From contig JAGOAS010000022.1 of assembly GCA_017983795.1 (NCBI GenBank), positions 1-64,000 on the forward strand: a stretch of DNA of 64,000 bases, given 5' to 3'. The stretch's first letter is position 1, and each line of letters starts with the position of its first letter. The notes below the pieces were generated by a model. The model had not been told where the DNA came from. It saw nothing but the letters and a program-made list of their open reading frames with translations, and ran no database searches. The stretch is from Piscinibacter sp. (GTDB lineage: Bacteria > Pseudomonadota > Gammaproteobacteria > Burkholderiales > Burkholderiaceae_C). A program made the translations under genes and the position numbers. Positions 8,305 to 16,022 of the stretch are shown here, in pieces.

Positions 8305-9126
8305 ATGATCTACCTCATCGGCGATGTGCAGGGCTGTTGCGACGCCTTCGAGCGCCTGCTCGCGGCGATCGGTTTCTCGCCTTCGCGCGACCGGCTGGTC
8401 GTGCTCGGCGACCTCGTCAACCGCGGCCCCGGCTCGCTGGCCACACTGCAGCGCCTGCGCGGTCTGGGCGACGCCGCCACCTGCCTGCTCGGCAACCACG
8501 ACCTGCACCTGCTCGCCGTGGCCTGCGGCGGCCGCAAGGCGCACCGCAGCGACACGCTGGCCGAGGTGCTGGCCTCGCCCGAGCGCGGCGCCTGGCTCGA
8601 ATGGCTGCGCCAGCGCCGCATGGCGGTGATGGAGAGCGGCTGGCTGTGCGTGCACGCCGGCGTGGTGCCGCAGTGGAACCGCGACGACACGCTGGCACGC
8701 GCCGCCGAGGTCGAGGCCATGCTCAGGAGCGACGCGCTCGACGAATTCCTGCACCAGATGTACGCCGACGAGCCGCTGCGCTGGAGCCCGGCGCTCGAAG
8801 GCAACGAGCGGCTGCGCTTCATCATCAACGTGCTGACGCGCATCCGCTTCGTCGACGCGAGCGGCGCGCTGGATCTCAAGACCAAGGAAGGCGCGGGCGG
8901 CGCGCCGAGCGGCTTCTATCCCTGGTTCGAAGCGCCCGGGCGCCGCACCGCCGGCGTGCCGATCGCCTTCGGCCACTGGTCGACGCTGGGCCTCGTCAAC
9001 CGCCCCGAGCTGCTGGCGCTGGACACCGGCTGCGTGTGGGGCGGCTCGCTCACCGCGGTGCGCGTGGACGGCGGGCGGCGCGAGGTGTTCCAGGTGGCGT
9101 GCGAGCAGGCGCAGGCGCCGGGGTGA
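8305..9126 (+). CDS. apaH: Symmetrical bis(5'-nucleosyl)-tetraphosphatase ApaH
   Basis: 273 residues, the typical ApaH length. The metallophosphatase signatures are all present: GDVQG (6-10), GDLVNRGP (35-42), GNHD (63-66), and a later HAGVVP. It cleaves diadenosine tetraphosphate symmetrically to two ADP in the cytoplasm, controlling alarmone levels and RNA capping by Np4A. It starts at the ATG that gives MIYLIGDVQG, the canonical N-terminus. The next plus-strand feature is tRNA-Ser. Confidence 0.95.
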   Translation: MIYLIGDVQGCCDAFERLLAAIGFSPSRDRLVVLGDLVNRGPGSLATLQRLRGLGDAATCLLGNHDLHLLAVACGGRKAHRSDTLAEVLASPERGAWLEWLRQRRMAVMESGWLCVHAGVVPQWNRDDTLARAAEVEAMLRSDALDEFLHQMYADEPLRWSPALEGNERLRFIINVLTRIRFVDASGALDLKTKEGAGGAPSGFYPWFEAPGRRTAGVPIAFGHWSTLGLVNRPELLALDTGCVWGGSLTAVRVDGGRREVFQVACEQAQAPG

Positions 9127-9162
9127 GGTCGGGGAAGCGCGGCCTACAATTTGCGGTTCGCC

Positions 9163-9250
9163 GGATGGGTGGCAGAGTGGTCGATTGCACCGGTCTTGAA
9201 AACCGGCAACGGGCAACCGTTCGTGGGTTCGAATCCCACCCCATCCGCCA
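9163..9250 (+). tRNA. tRNA-Ser (anticodon TGA)
   Basis: 88 bases including an encoded CCA. The acceptor arm GGATGGG pairs with CCCATCC; the anticodon arm CCGGT/ACCGG carries loop CTTGAAA, so the anticodon is TGA. A long variable arm follows, as in class II serine tRNAs, and the T-arm GTGGG-TTCGAAT-CCCAC is perfect. A TACAAT hexamer at 9145-9150 is suitably placed as the -10 box of its promoter. Confidence 0.97.
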
Positions 9251-9277
9251 GGAACCAAAGCCAACGAAGGAACTTTC

Positions 9278-9829
9278 ATGAGCCAGACCAAGATTGCCGT
9301 CGTCATCGGCAGCCTGCGCCGCGATTCCCTCAACCGCAAGCTGGCTCTGGCGATCACCCATCTTGCGCCCGCCGATTTCACTTTCGAGCCAGTGCGCATC
9401 GACGACCTGCCGCTGTACAACCAGGATGACGACGGCAACCAGGCCGCTTCCGTGAAGCGACTGAAGTCCGAGATTGCCGCGGCCGATGGCGTGGTCTTCG
9501 TGACGCCCGAATACAACCGGTCGATTCCGGGCGTGCTCAAGAACGCGATCGACCACGTATCGCGTCCCTACGGTCAGAACGCCTGGGCCGGCAAGCCGGC
9601 AGGGGTGATCGGCGTATCCGTCGGCACGCTCGGAACGGCCCTGGCGCAGCAGCATCTGCGCAACGTCATGGCCTACCTCGGCATGCCCACCCTGACGCAG
9701 CCCGAGGTTTTCATCCAGAACAAGGAAGGCCTCTTCGACGACAAGGGCCACATCGCCGAAGGCTCTCGGAAATTCCTGCAAGGCTGGGTCGACAGTTATG
9801 TCGGCTGGGTGCGGCGCCACGGCAAATAG
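9278..9829 (+). CDS. NAD(P)H-dependent FMN reductase (ChrR/YieF type)
   Basis: 183 residues with a flavodoxin-like fold. The FMN phosphate loop GSLRRDSLNRK is at 11-21 and the family signature PEYNRSIPGVLKNAID at 77-92. Such enzymes reduce quinones, chromate or azo compounds with NAD(P)H; the natural substrate is unknown. A GAAGGAA ribosome site precedes the ATG. It begins 27 bases after the tRNA 3' end and its codon use is slightly less GC-biased than that of its neighbours, which could reflect acquisition beside the tRNA, though no integrase or att duplication is visible. Confidence 0.9.
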   Translation: MSQTKIAVVIGSLRRDSLNRKLALAITHLAPADFTFEPVRIDDLPLYNQDDDGNQAASVKRLKSEIAAADGVVFVTPEYNRSIPGVLKNAIDHVSRPYGQNAWAGKPAGVIGVSVGTLGTALAQQHLRNVMAYLGMPTLTQPEVFIQNKEGLFDDKGHIAEGSRKFLQGWVDSYVGWVRRHGK

Positions 9830-9845
9830 GCCTCCACCAGGAGGC
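9830..9845 (+). terminator. Short hairpin just after the FMN reductase stop
   Basis: GCCTCC and GGAGGC form a 6-bp stem with loop ACCA immediately after the TAG stop. Only TTGG follows, with no real T-run, so it is a weak candidate terminator or mRNA 3'-end protector. Confidence 0.35.
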
Positions 9846-9930
9846 TTGGCCCCGTCGGTCCCAACCTTGTCCAGGCCCGGCGCGATCCGCGACACGCGGC
9901 AATGATCACCCCGCGCCGCGCAGACCGCCC

Positions 9931-10566
9931 TCACCAGCGCAGCACCCGCGGCCCCAGCAGCGCGCCGAGCGCGCCGACCATCAGGATGCCGATCGTGTAC
10001 CAGGCGGCGACGAAGCTCATCGCCATCTCGGTGCAGGCGAGCGCATAGGCGCCCGCGCCGATCGCCCCGGCGAGCAGGCCGGCCGCGAAGCCGGCGGGGC
10101 GCGGCCGTGTCGGCGCGAGGCCGCGCATCGCCCACAGCAGCGCCGCCAGCGCGGGCAGCGAGATGGTCAGCACGAACCAGGGGCAATCCCACCACGAGTG
10201 GCCGAGCAACCCCTTCACGCGCAGCTCTTGTGGCGTGGCCAGCCAGGCGGCCACGCCCACCGCCGCGGCGGCCAGCAGCACCAGCGCCGTCGCTGCGGAA
10301 GCCGGCCCCGTCTGCGCGCCCGGCCGCGCCAAGCGCGAGACGAGCGAGGCCGCGGCCAGCGCCATCGCCGCGGCGTAGGCGAGCTTGAACCACGGCGCCG
10401 CGAAGGCATAACGCTCGGCCGGGATGAAACCCAGCCACGCGAAGGCGATCGCCACGCCGGCCAGCAGGCCCAGCAGCATCGCCGCACCGAGGCGCCGCCC
10501 CACCACGCCGCGTGGCGCGACGCCGGCGCCCTGGGCCAGCAGGCCGATCAGTTCGTCGGTTCTCAT
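9931..10566 (-). CDS. nrsF: NrsF-type anti-sigma factor (DUF1109)
   Basis: 211 residues with six predicted membrane helices (about 25-47, 58-79, 88-110, 128-149, 159-178, 183-204). This is the DUF1109/NrsF architecture, negative regulator of the ECF sigma factor SigF in Caulobacter. Two cysteines, Cys128 (WWDCPW) and Cys178 (ACTE), are the only ones in the protein and match the conserved pair implicated in metal sensing by this family. Its ATG overlaps the TGA of the sigma factor gene (ATGA), so the two are translationally coupled. Expected role: holds SigF at the inner membrane until metal stress releases it. Confidence 0.85.
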   Translation of the reverse strand: MRTDELIGLLAQGAGVAPRGVVGRRLGAAMLLGLLAGVAIAFAWLGFIPAERYAFAAPWFKLAYAAAMALAAASLVSRLARPGAQTGPASAATALVLLAAAAVGVAAWLATPQELRVKGLLGHSWWDCPWFVLTISLPALAALLWAMRGLAPTRPRPAGFAAGLLAGAIGAGAYALACTEMAMSFVAAWYTIGILMVGALGALLGPRVLRW

Positions 10567-11135
10567 CGCGTCGTCCTCACCAGTTCGGCGAGCTTCTTCA
10601 GCCCGCGGTGCACCTGCACCTTCACCGCCGCGACGCTCGCGCCGGTGCGCACCGACACCTCGGCCACCGTCAGGCCCTCGATCTTGGTCAGCACGATGGC
10701 CTCGCGCTGCGCCGGCGGAATCGAACGCAGCAGCACGCCCAGGTCGCGCCGCGCCGCGTGTTCCTCGCGATCGTCGGCCGAGGGCGCCTCGTGGTCCTCG
10801 AGTTCGTCGAGCGAGGCGAGCTCGCCGTCGCGGCGGCCGCGACGCCGCCACAGATCGATCAGCTTGTGGCGCGCGATGGCGATCATCCAGGCGCTCACCG
10901 GCAGCGACGCATCCCAGGTGCCGCGCTGCAGGTGCAGCGCGAGCAGCGTTTCCTGCACCAGGTCTTCCACCTCGTCGGGCCAGGCCTGCATGCGGCGGCG
11001 CAGGTAGGCGCGCAGGCGCACGGCCATGCGTTGCAGCGCGGCGCGGTAGGCGGCTTCGTCGCCCGCCTGCGCGCGCAGCCACAGCGGGCGCAGCTGTGCT
11101 TCGTAATCGTCACTGTCGCTGCGCGCGCGGGTCAT
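10563..11135 (-). CDS. sigF: ECF sigma factor, SigF type
   Basis: 190 residues. Region 2 is seen as DEVEDLVQETLLALH with AWMIAIARHKLIDLWRRRGRR, and region 4 as SIPPAQREAIVLTKIEGLTVAEVSVRTG followed by a helix-turn-helix with VQVHRGLKKL. The start at 11135 gives the usual short N-terminus (MTRARSDSDD). A Met at 11207 would overlap the doxX stop by 8 bp and add 24 residues, and cannot be excluded. With the adjacent NrsF anti-sigma it forms the sigF-nrsF pair, here placed downstream of the bufferin genes it presumably activates, giving autoregulation. Confidence 0.88.
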   Translation of the reverse strand: MTRARSDSDDYEAQLRPLWLRAQAGDEAAYRAALQRMAVRLRAYLRRRMQAWPDEVEDLVQETLLALHLQRGTWDASLPVSAWMIAIARHKLIDLWRRRGRRDGELASLDELEDHEAPSADDREEHAARRDLGVLLRSIPPAQREAIVLTKIEGLTVAEVSVRTGASVAAVKVQVHRGLKKLAELVRTTR

Positions 11136-11199
11136 GGCCCGCGCATTCTGCAGCGCCGGTGCGCTGGCGCAAGCCAGGCGCGGTCCGAGGAACGCCGGC

Positions 11200-11676
11200 T
11201 CAGGCATGGCGTCGTGCGTCCAACCAATGATCGAGCGAGAAGGCGCCGGGCCCGCGCGCCATCAGCCACAGCAGCAGCGCCGCCCAGGTGCCGTGCGTCG
11301 GCCAGGCGCCGGGGTAGACGAGCAACTGGATCACCGCCGTCATCGCCAGCAGCCCCGCCGCCGAGAGCCGCGTTGCCAGGCCGACGAGCAGCAGCAGCGG
11401 CAGCACATGCTCGGCCAGCGCCGCCATCGGCGCGGCCCATTCGGGCGGCAGCAGGGGCAGCTTGTATTCCTCGCGGAACAGGGCGATCGCGTTGGGCGAG
11501 AGATGCGGCCAGCCGAACTGGAAGTTCCCTTCGACCAGATCGACCGCGAAGCCCTCGACCTTGGTCTGGCCCGACTTCCAGAACACCGCGGCGATGGCGA
11601 AGCGCGCCAGCAGCGCGATGGCCGATTCGGGGATGGCCGCGAAGGCGCGCAGCAGGCGTTCGACGAGGTGGTTCAT
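11200..11676 (-). CDS. DoxX family membrane protein of the bufferin locus
   Basis: 158 residues, four predicted membrane helices, DoxX family (including the early AVFWKSGQTK motif). DoxX proteins are standard companions of DUF2282/DUF692/DUF2063 genes; their exact role there is not settled, possibly redox or membrane handling of copper. The ATG overlaps the TGA of the DUF2063 gene (ATGA), indicating coupled translation. Confidence 0.85.
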   Translation of the reverse strand: MNHLVERLLRAFAAIPESAIALLARFAIAAVFWKSGQTKVEGFAVDLVEGNFQFGWPHLSPNAIALFREEYKLPLLPPEWAAPMAALAEHVLPLLLLVGLATRLSAAGLLAMTAVIQLLVYPGAWPTHGTWAALLLWLMARGPGAFSLDHWLDARRHA

Positions 11677-12446
11677 GGCTGTCCGGACGTAGATGAAGAC
11701 CAGCCGACGATGGCGCCGTGGCGCAGCAGCAGGGCCAGCGTGGCGGGAAGATCCACGCCGGGCGCGCGTTGCAGCGCTTCGGCAAAGGTGGCGCCCTCGA
11801 GCAGCGCGGCGATGAAGTCGGCCGCTCCGGCAGCCAGGCGGATCACCCACACCTCGTCGGCCGGATCGCGCAGCACGAGCATCTCGCAGGGCTGGTCGAT
11901 GGCCATCGCCGGCCAGTCGCCCTCCTGCTGGTGCGCAACCCACAGCGCATGCACGTCGAAGGGCGAGCGCAGCACGCGGCACGAAGGGTGCAACGTCGGC
12001 CGCGCGCCCGGCAGCGAAGCCGGGTCGGCCAGCCGCGCGGCGATGGCTTCGGCCGCGAGCGGCTGTGCATCGGCGGCGTGACAGGCCGCGATGCGCGCAC
12101 GCTCCAGCCGCGCCATGTCGCTCAGGTAAGGCAAGGCGCGCGCCGGCTCGAAGGCGGCCAGCCAGTCGGGCAAGCCCTCACCGTAGTGCGCCAGCACCGG
12201 CGAAGCGGGCGGATGCGCACGCACGTAGAGGCCGGCCATCGCGTCGAAGAACTCGTCGCCGACCAGTTGGCGCAGCACCGGGAAGCTGTCGGCCAGCGCA
12301 GCCACCAGCGAGACGATCACGTTGTTGCGGTAGACGGCGAAGCGGCGCGCCGGGTCGGAGCCGTTCCAGGCGCACAGGCCGGCGGGCACGGGCCGCTCGG
12401 CATCGAGCAGCGCCGCGGCGAACTCGGCTTGCACGAGCGCGTTCAT
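11673..12446 (-). CDS. bufC1: DUF2063 protein, MNIO partner (BufC type)
   Basis: 257 residues. The N-terminal part (about 1-95) shows the DUF2063 signature: FAAALLD, RFAVYRNNVIVSLVAALADSFPVLRQLVGDEFFDAMA and YVRAHPPASPVL. The family forms the partner or RRE-like protein that delivers the precursor peptide to the DUF692 enzyme. The C-terminal half is less conserved. Its start overlaps the bufB stop by 4 bp (ATGA). Cytoplasmic. Confidence 0.87.
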   Translation of the reverse strand: MNALVQAEFAAALLDAERPVPAGLCAWNGSDPARRFAVYRNNVIVSLVAALADSFPVLRQLVGDEFFDAMAGLYVRAHPPASPVLAHYGEGLPDWLAAFEPARALPYLSDMARLERARIAACHAADAQPLAAEAIAARLADPASLPGARPTLHPSCRVLRSPFDVHALWVAHQQEGDWPAMAIDQPCEMLVLRDPADEVWVIRLAAGAADFIAALLEGATFAEALQRAPGVDLPATLALLLRHGAIVGWSSSTSGQP

Positions 12447-13288
12447 GCGGCCTCCCGCAGCGCTGCGCCCAGCGCACGCATGGCGGCGCGTGCATGCGCT
12501 GCCTCGGCCGCCAGCACCGGCAGCGCCGGCACCTCGTTGTCGCGCTCGATCAGCGTCGGCCGCGGGCCCAGCCGTTCGAGTGTGCGCTGGTAGAGCGCCC
12601 ACACGGCCGCATCGACGGGCGCGCCATGGTGGTCGATCAGCAAGCGATCGCCGGCGGCATCACGATCCTCGGCGAAGCCGGCGAGGTGGATCTCGCCGAT
12701 CGCGCCGGCGGGCAGCGCCTCGATCAGCGCCCAGGGGTCGCGGCCGTGGTTCACGCCGCTCACGTAGGCGTTGTTGACGTCGAGCAGCGCTCCGCAGCCG
12801 GTGCGGCGCACCACTTCGGCGATGAACGCACCTTCGTCCCAGGTCGAGGATTCGAAGGCCACGTAGCTGCTCGGGTTCTCCAGCAGCATGGGCCGGCGCA
12901 GCCGCGTCTGCACGCGGTCGATGTGCTCGCACACGCGCGCCAGTGTGGTGTCGTCATAGGGCAGCGGCAGCAGGTCGTTGAGCCAGGTGCCGCCATGGCT
13001 GGACCAGGCGAGGTGCTCCGAGAACCAGCGCGGCTCGAAGCGCTGCAGCAGCGCGGCCAGCGCATCGAGATGCGCCTCGTCCAGCGGCGCCTCGCCGCCG
13101 ATCGACAGCCCGACGCCGTGGAGCGACAGCGGCAGCCGCTCGCGCAGGCGTTCGAGCCGGCGCAGCCGCGGCCCGCCGGCCACGAAGTAGTTCTCGGCGT
13201 GGATCTCGAGAAAGTCCACGGCCGCCGCGCCTTCCAGCAGCGGCAGCGCGTGCTCGTCCTTGAGGCCGATGCCGGCCAGCGCGTCCAT
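12443..13288 (-). CDS. bufB1: DUF692 / MNIO multinuclear iron oxidative enzyme (BufB type)
   Basis: 281 residues, complete TIM-barrel MNIO family protein. Candidate metal ligands lie in the expected motifs: EIHAENY (His30, Glu32), SLHGVG (His57), SEHLAW (His92), LLENPSS (Glu137), LLDVNNAYV (Asp170, Asn172), EIHLAGF (His201), IDHHGAPV (Asp219, His220/221), LIERD (Glu248). By family knowledge it uses an Fe(II)/Fe(III) cluster to oxidise cysteines in the BufA precursor, in bufferins to thiooxazoles. It lies 18 bases downstream of the precursor gene and is coupled to bufC1 by ATGA overlap. Confidence 0.92.
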   Translation of the reverse strand: MDALAGIGLKDEHALPLLEGAAAVDFLEIHAENYFVAGGPRLRRLERLRERLPLSLHGVGLSIGGEAPLDEAHLDALAALLQRFEPRWFSEHLAWSSHGGTWLNDLLPLPYDDTTLARVCEHIDRVQTRLRRPMLLENPSSYVAFESSTWDEGAFIAEVVRRTGCGALLDVNNAYVSGVNHGRDPWALIEALPAGAIGEIHLAGFAEDRDAAGDRLLIDHHGAPVDAAVWALYQRTLERLGPRPTLIERDNEVPALPVLAAEAAHARAAMRALGAALREAA

Positions 13289-13306
13289 CGCGGCAGGCCC
13301 TCGTCT

Positions 13307-13624
13307 TCAGGCCTTCTTTTCCTTGAAGGCGGCAAGCTGGCCGTAGCCGGTCGGCGAGGTCTTGGATAGGGTCTTCTCGCAGCTGCCCTTGGGCACGAAG
13401 CTCCAGGAGTTGCCCTGGTGATCCATCTTGGAGGTGCCCGCGCAGGTGGTGCCGGCGCCGGCGGCGCAGTCGTTCTTGCCCTTCATCGCCACGCCGAAGC
13501 ACTTCTCCTTGTCCATATTCTGGTCGGCGTTCTGGGCCTGCGCCGGCGCGGCGGCCAGCGTGAGGGCGGCGCCCAGCGCGAGGGCGAGCGTGGCGGCGGT
13601 CGAGGTGGTCAGCGTCTGGGACAT
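13307..13624 (-). CDS. bufA1: Bufferin-1 precursor (DUF2282)
   Basis: 105 residues. A Sec signal peptide (about 1-30, cleavage APAQA/QNAD) precedes a hydrophilic mature region with exactly four cysteines: Cys42 (KEKCFG), Cys53 (KNDCAA), Cys61 (TTCAGTS) and Cys82 (KGSCEK). This is the DUF2282/BufA1 pattern. Known family members are ribosomal peptides modified on cysteines by the DUF692 enzyme before export and then bind copper in the periplasm. An AAGGAG site (complement of 13631-13636) lies 6 bases before the ATG. First gene of the six-gene operon. Confidence 0.9.
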
Positions 13625-13684
13625 TCGAATCTCCTTGAGTGGTGGGGGCGAGGGCCGCGTGCCGCGGCAGGCCTCCCCGCTCTA

Positions 13685-13710
13685 TTCGTCCCGGACGCGA
13701 TGAAGGTTAC
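13685..13710 (-). promoter_or_regulatory. Predicted SigF promoter of the bufferin operon
   Basis: On the minus strand the sequence reads GTAACC (13710-13705), a 16-base spacer, then CGAA (13688-13685). This equals the GTAACC-N16-CGAA motif reported for Caulobacter SigF. The -10 element lies about 60 bases upstream of the bufA1 start, and the -35 element overlaps the TAA stop of malQ (13707-13709). No other copy was noticed by eye in the window. Confidence 0.8.
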
Positions 13711-15218
13711 AGCGCGGGTTTCGGCAGACGTTCGTACAGCGCGCCCATGCGCCGCAGCCGCGCGGCGGCATCGGCCGGCAACTGCTCCCGGCGGAAGCGC
13801 CAGGCCCACCAGCCTTCGCCCTGGCCGGGGAAGTTCATGCGGCCGCTGCTGTCCAGGCCCATCACGTCCTGCAGCGGATGGATGGCGGTGTCGGCCACGC
13901 TGGCGCTGGCGGCGCGGATCATGTCCCAGTGGATGGCGCGGCCGTCGGTGGCGAGGTACTCGCGCAGGTGGTGGCGCGTGGCCTCGTCCGCCGCCTGCCA
14001 CCAGCCGAGCGTGGTGTCGTTGTCGTGCGTGCCGGTGTAGACCACGCTGTCGCTCGCGTGGCGGTGCGGCAGGAAACGCGGCTCGGCGGCCTCGCCCTCC
14101 CCCCAGGCGAATTGCAGGATGCGCATGCCGGGGAAGGCGAAGGCCAGGCGCATGGCCTCGACGTCGGGCGTGATCACGCCCAGATCCTCGGCGATGATGG
14201 GCAGCGGGCCCAGCGCATCGGCAATCGCGCGGAACAGAGCCTCGCCTGGGCCCTTCACCCACGCGCCCTTGCGCGCAGTGGGCTCGCTGGCGGGAATCTC
14301 CCAATGCGCCGCGAAGCCGCGGAAGTGGTCGATGCGCACGATGTCCACCAGCTCGAAGCTGCGCCGCACGCGCTCCACCCACCATGCATAGCCGCCCTTC
14401 GCGTGCTCGCTCCAGCGGTACAGCGGGTTGCCCCAGCGCTGGCCGGTGGCGCTGAAGGCATCGGGCGGCACGCCGGCCACCACCGTCGGCCGGCCGCTCG
14501 CATCGAGCTCGAAGAGCCGAGGCCGCGCCCACACGTCGGCGCTTTGGTAGGCGACGAAGATCGGCATGTCGCCGACGATCTGCACGCCGCGCGAGTGCGC
14601 GTGTGCGCGCAAGGCCGCCCACTGGCGGAAGAAGCACCATTGGCAGAACACCCAGAAGGCGATGCGCTCGCGATGCGTTTCGCGCGCGCGCTGCAGCGCG
14701 GCCGGCTCGCGCGCGGCCAGGCCGTCGGGCCACTCGCACCAGTCGCGCCAGCCGTGGTGCTCGGCCAGCGCCATGAAGAGCGCGTAGTCGCCCAGCCAGT
14801 CGGCATGCTGCTGCTCGAAGGCCGCCAGCGCGGCGCGTTCGGCCGCGCTCGAGCGCGGCGCGAAACGCGTGGCGGCGAGCGCCAGGCGCTGCATGCGGTA
14901 CGGCACCATCGCCGCGAAATCGATGCGCGCGTCGTCCCGGCCCGGCGGCGGCGCGATCTCCTCGGTGCTGAGCCAGCCGCGCTGCTGCAGCTCGCGCAGG
15001 TCGATCAGCAGCACGTTGCCGGCGAAGGCCGAACTGCTCATGTAAGGCGAGTTGCCGGGCCCCAGGCCGCCCAGCGGCAGCACCTGCCAGAGCGACTGGC
15101 CGGCCTCGGCCAGCCAGTCGACGAAGGCATGCGCCTCGCTGCCGAGATCGCCGCTGCCATGCGGGCCGGGCAGCGAGGTGGGGTGCAGCAGGATGCCGCT
15201 GCGGCGCGGGAAGTGCAT
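13707..15218 (-). CDS. malQ: 4-alpha-glucanotransferase (GH77 amylomaltase)
   Basis: 503 residues, full length for MalQ. Start motif RRSGILLHPTSLPG, sugar-site GNSPYMSSSAFAGN, catalytic region VRIDHFRGF (nucleophile Asp), IIAEDLG (acid/base Glu) and YTGTHDNDT (transition-state Asp). It transfers alpha-1,4-glucan segments in maltodextrin or glycogen metabolism in the cytoplasm. No other glycogen genes are nearby. It begins 6 bases after the stop of the upstream BtuF-like gene, suggesting co-transcription, and its stop codon is used as part of the predicted bufferin promoter. Confidence 0.94.
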   Translation of the reverse strand: MHFPRRSGILLHPTSLPGPHGSGDLGSEAHAFVDWLAEAGQSLWQVLPLGGLGPGNSPYMSSSAFAGNVLLIDLRELQQRGWLSTEEIAPPPGRDDARIDFAAMVPYRMQRLALAATRFAPRSSAAERAALAAFEQQHADWLGDYALFMALAEHHGWRDWCEWPDGLAAREPAALQRARETHRERIAFWVFCQWCFFRQWAALRAHAHSRGVQIVGDMPIFVAYQSADVWARPRLFELDASGRPTVVAGVPPDAFSATGQRWGNPLYRWSEHAKGGYAWWVERVRRSFELVDIVRIDHFRGFAAHWEIPASEPTARKGAWVKGPGEALFRAIADALGPLPIIAEDLGVITPDVEAMRLAFAFPGMRILQFAWGEGEAAEPRFLPHRHASDSVVYTGTHDNDTTLGWWQAADEATRHHLREYLATDGRAIHWDMIRAASASVADTAIHPLQDVMGLDSSGRMNFPGQGEGWWAWRFRREQLPADAAARLRRMGALYERLPKPAL

Positions 15219-15224
15219 GGTGGT

Positions 15225-16022
15225 TCAGTCCTCTGCGAGCGCCACGCGCCCGATCAAACGATGCAGTTGTTCGAGCCCGTCGGTCAGCGCCGCCGGGCCG
15301 GGCTGCAGGATGTCGCAGCTCTTGATCTCGTGCAGCTCGCCGCGGCGCACTGCCGGCACCTCGGCCCAGCCGGGCCGCGCGCTGACGTGCTCGGCGCGGA
15401 ACTTCTTGCCGCACCAGCTGCCGACGATCAGCTCGGGCGCACGCCGCGCCGGTTCGAGCGCATCCGCGATCACACGATCGCGGCCCATGCGCTGCACGGC
15501 GAGCTCGGGAAAGACGTCGTCGCCGCCGGCGATGCCGATCAGCTCGCTGACCCACTGGATCGCGCTGATCATGGGCTCGTCCCACTCCTCGAAGTAGACG
15601 CGCGGGCGGCGCGGCCAGCGCGCGGCGGCAGCGCGCATCTCGGCGTGGCGGCGCTCGCAGGCCGCGATCCAGGCCTCGGCCTCGGCGCTGCGGCCGACGA
15701 GATTGGCCACCAGGCGCAGCGTGGCGAAGATCTCGGCCACGCTGCGCTGGTTGGTGATCAGCACGTTCAGGCCGGCACGGATCAGCTTGTCGGCGAGCGC
15801 CGCCTGCATGTCGGAGAAGCCGATCACCAGATCGGGCCGCAGCTCGACGATGCGATCGATCCTGCCGTCGAGAAAGGCCGAGACGCGCGGCTTCTCCTGG
15901 CGCGCGCGCCTGGGGCGCACGGTGTAGCCGGAGATGCCGACGATGCGCGCCTCTTCGCCGAGCAGGTAGAGCCACTCGGTGGTTTCTTCGGTGAGGCAGA
16001 CGATGCGTTGCGGGCCATGCAT
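15225..16022 (-). CDS. BtuF-like cobalamin-binding protein without signal peptide
   Basis: 265 residues of the class III periplasmic-binding fold: RIVCLTEETTEWLYLLG start, ELRPDLVIGFSDMQ, and RVYFEEWDEPM in the middle. It matches the group usually named cobalamin-binding protein / ABC transporter substrate-binding protein. No signal peptide or lipobox is present in this reading, and no in-frame extension providing one is evident, so the protein appears cytoplasmic. No BtuC/BtuD genes lie nearby. Its role in vitamin B12 use is inferred only from family resemblance. Confidence 0.72.
   Translation of the reverse strand: MHGPQRIVCLTEETTEWLYLLGEEARIVGISGYTVRPRRARQEKPRVSAFLDGRIDRIVELRPDLVIGFSDMQAALADKLIRAGLNVLITNQRSVAEIFATLRLVANLVGRSAEAEAWIAACERRHAEMRAAAARWPRRPRVYFEEWDEPMISAIQWVSELIGIAGGDDVFPELAVQRMGRDRVIADALEPARRAPELIVGSWCGKKFRAEHVSARPGWAEVPAVRRGELHEIKSCDILQPGPAALTDGLEQLHRLIGRVALAED

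Follow-up and report, generated by a model that had tools for sequence, protein, structure and literature searches.

Does the six-gene run at positions 13624-9931 on the minus strand of a Piscinibacter sp. contig (JAGOAS010000022.1) encode a complete bufferin system, and from where are the sigma factor and anti-sigma factor genes at its 3' end transcribed? The genes stand in the order bufA-bufB-bufC-bufD(doxX)-sigF-nrsF within a 64,000-nucleotide (nt) stretch of DNA that was analysed as a whole and is called the window here. Based on protein families, promoter motifs and relatives, we conclude that the locus is almost certainly an intact Buf1-type bufferin operon with sigma-F/NrsF control. The complete proposal, in which the genes form one transcription unit controlled by their own sigma-F/NrsF pair via one promoter, we consider moderately probable. 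A bufferin operon with sigF-nrsF is an already described kind of locus, and the tandem order of the pair behind the operon is the small twist.

Gene set and promoter

Each of the six predicted proteins exceeds the curated cut-off of its Pfam model (Pfam and NCBIfam scores are given as bits/cut-off), in agreement with an earlier note on this DNA that had assigned the six families, among them DUF2282, DUF692, DUF2063, DoxX and NrsF, to one minus-strand run. The four-cysteine DUF2282 precursor claimed there is BufA (13307..13624, -; PF10048, 81.2/22.4), whose Cys42, Cys53, Cys61 and Cys82 never vary among 33 aligned precursors, namely the window's and 32 hand-chosen of 57 rows with short, near-duplicate, odd and six-cysteine rows omitted; a script alignment of the full 58 rows has 100% cysteine at the same four columns. 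The MNIO (DUF692) maturase BufB (12443..13288, -; MbnB_TglH_ChrH, PF05114, 341.5/25) also passes the bufferin-maturase model MNIO_BufB (NF050167, 368.5/310), aligns with the solved MNIO 3BWW (E 9e-42) and keeps the His, Glu, Asp and Asn positions conserved across 52 rows. Next come the DUF2063 partner protein BufC (11673..12446, -; PF09836, 100.7/27.2) and the DoxX-family membrane protein BufD (11200..11676, -; PF07681, 60.4/23.6). The extracytoplasmic function (ECF) sigma factor SigF (10563..11135, -; Sigma70_r2, 42.3/24; Sigma70_r4_2, 49.8/25.7) and the membrane anti-sigma factor NrsF (9931..10566, -; PF06532, 189.6/26.8) occupy 11135-9931 behind doxX, which is the 3'-terminal position that the earlier note had given them. 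Narrower NCBIfam models were matched below their cut-offs (HvfC 67/142 for BufC, HvfX 42/80, AntiSigF_NrsF (NF042994) 132/300 for NrsF, BufA2 24/60 for BufA), and among solved structures BufA had a single match, at E 0.56, and BufC none at E <= 0.1. Membership in an oxazolin, methanobactin or chryseobactin cluster was considered and rejected, with BufB below the cut-offs of HvfB (226/360), MbnB (48/325) and ChrH (26/600).

ATGA overlaps couple bufB-bufC, bufC-doxX and sigF-nrsF, exactly as had been claimed, and 18 nt separate bufA from bufB. The doxX-sigF junction is not such an overlap, because sigF, to judge from the N-termini of relatives, probably starts at ATG 11135, 64 nt past the doxX stop, rather than at an alternative ATG 11207 that overlaps the bufD stop. 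The intervening gap (window 11136-11199, -) is predicted to form a strong fold that takes in the start of sigF (72 nt, about -36 kcal/mol, calculated without shuffles), which could damp sigF translation.

A sigma-F-type promoter, GTAACC-TTCATCGCGTCCGGGA-CGAA, stands at 13710-13685 (-), 60 nt upstream of the bufA start; it is new in this analysis and absent from the earlier note. The site is a perfect match to the Caulobacter sigma-F site GTAACC-N16-CGAA (PMC3511200), with a -35 element at 13710-13705 that overlaps the malQ stop codon (13709-13707) and a -10 element at 13688-13685. It is the sole N16 match in the 4.24-Mb host genome (99.7% complete), which has a single match each for MNIO, NrsF and DUF2282. 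The genome-wide survey covered perfect matches with N15-17 spacers and gave two in the window against 0.07 expected and three in the genome; a backward-read control pattern gave nine in the genome. Across the genome the motif thus shows no enrichment, which is consistent with a very small regulon. The other two matches (window 61273; G000:C43:194951-194977) were rejected as additional targets of sigma-F: each has an N17 spacer and lies antisense within a frame, PilY1-like in one case (28.3 bits, cut-off 28.1) and lipoyl-ligase-like in the other, and they look like chance. An extra one-mismatch site, antisense in bufC, is also taken as chance.

Ahead of the window's sigF there is no motif with one mismatch or fewer, the best site within 300 nt having four. 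A promoter and terminator scan of 9200-14300 found no sigma-70-like promoter and no minus-strand terminator, and its one plus-strand terminator-like site compares with 1.6 in shuffles. With one sigma-F promoter before bufA and none at this threshold before sigF, the autoregulatory loop that the earlier note had predicted gains a basis in sequence: the supply of sigma-F should follow the bufA promoter, giving a positive loop.

Gene order among relatives

A BufB scan gave 50 named loci, 51 with the window, from which near copies of the host may be missing. Five are tandem (the window; L023, from Piscinibacter aquaticus KACC 15278; L024; L026; L072), five are divergent (L030, L053 and the near-identical L059-L061), one is arranged otherwise (L048), and 40 are without NrsF in the stretch examined, a count that may partly reflect the ends of short contigs and not absence. 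The motif, at one mismatch or fewer within 330 nt ahead of bufA, is present in 5/5 tandem loci, 1/5 divergent loci, 0/1 of the other kind and 3/40 without NrsF, as well as in 19/2000 random 330-nt window stretches. In the 300 nt before sigF, the closest match has four mismatches in all five tandem loci; among the divergent loci it has none in L059-L061, one in L030 and two in L053, and a sigF-facing motif is thus present in four of the five. Matches to 'sigF' in L037, L038, L039 and L069 (184-187 bits) and in L057 (192 bits) were not counted as sigF-nrsF loci because their stretches hold no NrsF match.

For a second set, 150 genomes were sampled from the host's family and surveyed at E <= 0.001; NrsF was found in 26 and DUF2282 in 88. 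When the two tables were paired by reading, both families lay on one contig within 6 kb in 17 genomes, with 12 loci divergent, three tandem (the window, G016 and G084), one convergent (G130) and one with nrsF upstream on the same strand (G147), and the tandem order is therefore a minority form in the family sample (3/17). The other nine NrsF genomes are G018, G021, G034, G118, G120, G127, G152, G155 and G170, of which G034 was added to give 18 loci, its NrsF lying next to an MNIO whose precursor scores weakly. At one mismatch or fewer (N15-17), the motif faces bufA in 18/18 of these and faces sigF in 14/15 non-tandem loci (all except G154), as against 0/3 tandem ones. Adding L023, L026 and L072, and counting G016 and L024 once as the same record, brings the tandem loci to six, with the bufA motif in 6/6 and the sigF motif in 0/6. 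Fisher values of 4.6e-5 for the bufA-facing motif (tandem 5/5 against NrsF-less 3/40, first set) and 1.3e-4 for the sigF-facing motif (14/15 non-tandem against 0/6 tandem) overstate independence, since the loci are related. Because the tandem loci carry the bufA motif throughout and the sigF motif nowhere, sigF-nrsF probably depends on the bufA promoter.

The window's closest parallels are L023, the metagenome bins L024 (= G016), L026 and L072, and G084, which share its tandem six-gene order and a bufA promoter with one mismatch or fewer; the P. aquaticus BufB (L023) is 85% identical to the window's. A GAAACC stands 12 bases ahead of the -35 GTAACC in the window (13722-13705, -) and in P. aquaticus (L023:4576), and 20 bases ahead in L072; it may be left over from malQ or belong to a longer promoter element. 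In a BufB tree of 52 rows, one fully supported group (100/100) unites the five tandem loci of the first set with the divergent Thiorhodococcus locus L030, so the order changed inside one sigF-bearing branch. The tree is compatible with a single as well as a repeated origin of the tandem order, with two changes in the best tree and one in 19% of bootstrap trees.

One alternative concerns the sigF promoter. The operon may be a bufferin operon whose sigF-nrsF pair is independently transcribed from an unseen promoter in doxX, with a loop like that of the divergent systems. The 64 nt with a predicted strong fold (without shuffles) between doxX and the likely sigF start favour such an arrangement, as does the fact that simple scans cover few promoter types. 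It also has a precedent in another betaproteobacterium, Cupriavidus metallidurans, whose gigPABT and rpoQ-rsqA genes are of the same kinds: there rpoQ-rsqA is a separate unit, divergent from gig and reported to be RpoD-dependent, whereas the window's pair stands in tandem at the 3' end (PMC10304878). However, the best sigma-F match within 300 nt of sigF has four mismatches in 5/5 tandem loci and three in G084, and no sigma-70-like site occurs in 9200-14300. We hold an independent sigF promoter to be unlikely, if well worth keeping in view, and dependence on the bufA promoter remains our preferred explanation.

Several relatives show further variation. In L115 (G147:C37:11800-21500), three perfect GTAACC-N16-CGAA sites face sigF-nrsF, a DoxX gene on the other side, and bufA about 2 kb downstream of nrsF, and the DoxX gene seems separated from the remaining bufferin genes. 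L127 (G066:C6:165000-169500) has a DUF2282 gene divergent from sigF-nrsF, with sigma-F sites; the stretch covers 1.6 kb after bufA, in which neither MNIO nor DUF2063 was matched. Two tandem precursor-like genes (four cysteines, WGVN motif) precede a nearly identical MNIO in L067 and L070, on contigs labelled Proteobacteria and Acidithiobacillus. The L063 contig is labelled Klebsiella pneumoniae (a metagenome bin) and is probably mis-binned; its BufB groups with those of the metagenome-bin contigs L064 and L065.

Metal response and a proposed circuit

The nearest described control system is that of Caulobacter, where bufferins with sigF-nrsF control belong to a copper-induced regulon (PMC3511200, PMC8224329). 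The likeness to Caulobacter bufferins that the earlier note had drawn stands for the gene set and fails for the arrangement. The C. vibrioides bufferin-1 operon (CC3254-CC3257) with sigF-nrsF (CC3253-CC3252) comprises the same six families as the window, and Caulobacter likewise has GTAACC-N16-CGAA ahead of its DUF2282 gene and an NrsF with two key cysteines (PMC3511200). Unlike in the window, where all six genes form one run, its sigF-nrsF pair is transcribed separately, from a sigma-F promoter of its own (PMC3511200), and the locus numbers suggest that the pair diverges from the buf operon. Caulobacter sigma-F is also reported to drive a second bufferin operon and an msrPQ-like pair, whereas the window's genome has one N16 site. 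Autoregulation is not special to the 3' position, because Caulobacter sigF also has a sigma-F promoter. We found no description of the tandem order in the literature text on bufferins and sigF-nrsF that was covered, figures being outside its scope, and we make no claim of a first report. A survey of Buf1 clusters does include sigma factor and NrsF genes among their members (PMC12452194).

NrsF Cys128 and Cys178 are invariant in nine full-length rows (83% in a 12-row script alignment that includes split fragments), and they resemble the pair C131 and C181 of Caulobacter NrsF, which are assigned to the periplasmic side and whose replacement releases sigma-F (PMC3511200). The NrsF model (pLDDT, the predicted local distance difference test, 81) consists of six long helices. 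Cys128 lies close to where the fourth begins and Cys178 in the fifth-sixth loop, and a six-helix topology would put both on the same side of the membrane. The BufA N-terminus is hydrophobic and Sec-like by eye, ending in AQA, and those of relatives are similar. Buf1 peptides have been reported to bind copper, with the two central cysteines modified and the outer two forming a disulphide (PMC12452194). In the captophorins fontiphorin, oxazolin and gonophorin, whose precursors carry EGKCG-type repeats and not DUF2282, an MNIO and a DUF2063 partner generate 5-thiooxazoles on cysteines, and the authors assign bufferins to that proposed class too (PMC13097082).

We propose that NrsF holds sigma-F at the inner membrane. 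A surplus of metal, most likely copper, on the periplasmic side would perturb the two conserved NrsF cysteines and so release the sigma factor. Free sigma-F would then transcribe the whole operon from the single GTAACC-N16-CGAA promoter ahead of bufA. BufB and BufC would convert the two central BufA cysteines, probably to 5-thiooxazoles, prior to Sec export, and the exported product would bind copper in the periplasm. With sigF and nrsF placed 3' behind the bufA promoter, induction would yield more sigma-F, a positive loop, together with more NrsF; once the product had removed copper, NrsF would shut the operon off, closing a negative loop by way of the ligand. Read-through out of malQ could supply basal sigma-F, as no minus-strand terminator was called between malQ and the operon. 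In line with a metal signal, copper and gold induce gig in Cupriavidus (PMC10304878). Within this scheme we infer co-transcription, the metal signal, modification, export and both loops; copper induction and cysteine modification of the window's operon are likewise presumed, and copper binding or protection by its BufA is expected from the family (PMC12452194, PMC8224329).

The pair and the peptide might instead serve mainly another stress, such as oxidants (hypochlorite), chromium, cadmium or gold. Caulobacter sigma-F does respond to chromium and cadmium (PMC3511200), the Cupriavidus genes are named for gold, and two same-genus genomes, G004 (L009; G004:C32:13147-16758) and G006 (L012), have NrsF but gave no match for MNIO or DUF2282. 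Beside a sigma factor gene and NrsF of G004 lies a frame resembling chlorite dismutase, with GTAACC-N15-CGAA at L009:833, which suggests another regulon. A Pfam search of 10 stretches near relatives' NrsF genes named neighbours in three (Chlor_dismutase, DUF4420 and VTT_dom) and none in seven. However, oxidants raised the tested Caulobacter sigma-F genes no more than twofold (PMC3511200), whereas copper induces the Caulobacter sigF regulon, sigF and nrsF included, raising sigF by 2.2-4.7 log2, and a sigF mutant is copper-sensitive in growth (PMC8224329). Buf1 peptides, too, are reported to bind copper (PMC12452194). A main role in another stress appears rather improbable to us.

Decay of the locus into a silent relic seems very improbable. 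NrsF is patchy in the genus, in 4/8 genomes with the window's included, and the P. aquaticus nrsF reads in two frames (L023:7744-8375), a split that is likely a sequencing error because the assembly is counted as 77% complete. In the window, however, all six frames are open, and the conserved residues and the promoter are kept.

Other observations, beside the relatedness of the loci, weigh against the copper-responsive, single-promoter operon. Under chromium, Caulobacter sigF was not strongly autoregulated in the study of 2012 (PMC3511200), and deletion of rpoQ in Cupriavidus raised gig expression in metal-treated cells (PMC10304878). Of the five divergent loci in the first set, four (L053, L059-L061) lack a motif with one mismatch or fewer in the 330 nt ahead of bufA, and the NrsF-less L047, L052 and L057, the last with a divergent sigF-like gene, carry one on the bufA side. 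When a wider stretch running into sigF is scanned, the best sites have two mismatches (L072) or three (the window and L026), and a sigF promoter unlike either the sigma-70 or the sigma-F consensus may yet exist. The AlphaFold model of BufA is poor (pLDDT 65) and too weak for judging the disulphide.

Genomic setting and possible meaning of the tandem order

Upstream of the operon lies malQ (15218-13707, -; Glyco_hydro_77 in Pfam), and downstream an FMN reductase gene (9278-9829, +) and a tRNA (9163-9247, Rfam), the latter being the only Rfam match at gathering thresholds in 8800-15500.

The specific regulatory variant that the tandem loci may represent is one branch of betaproteobacteria in which sigma-F/NrsF has no promoter of its own, sits at the 3' end of the operon that it controls, receives basal sigma-F only by malQ read-through or promoter leak, and is shut off as the peptide removes the metal; we incline to this variant by a narrow balance. 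A simple rule is suggested by the motif distribution, namely that sigma-F-linked units bear GTAACC-N16-CGAA and that a 3'-terminal sigF goes without its own promoter. If true, a single promoter would fix the proportion of precursor, maturase, sigma factor and anti-sigma factor, making the operon a self-contained, portable metal switch. As a bufferin operon whose sigma-F promoter can be read, the locus is a clean example from the betaproteobacteria; it does not amount to a new class of system. Its tandem order leads to a more sharply defined regulatory prediction than the divergent one does. A one-promoter positive loop would be directly testable, and the operon may offer a compact metal-responsive cassette.

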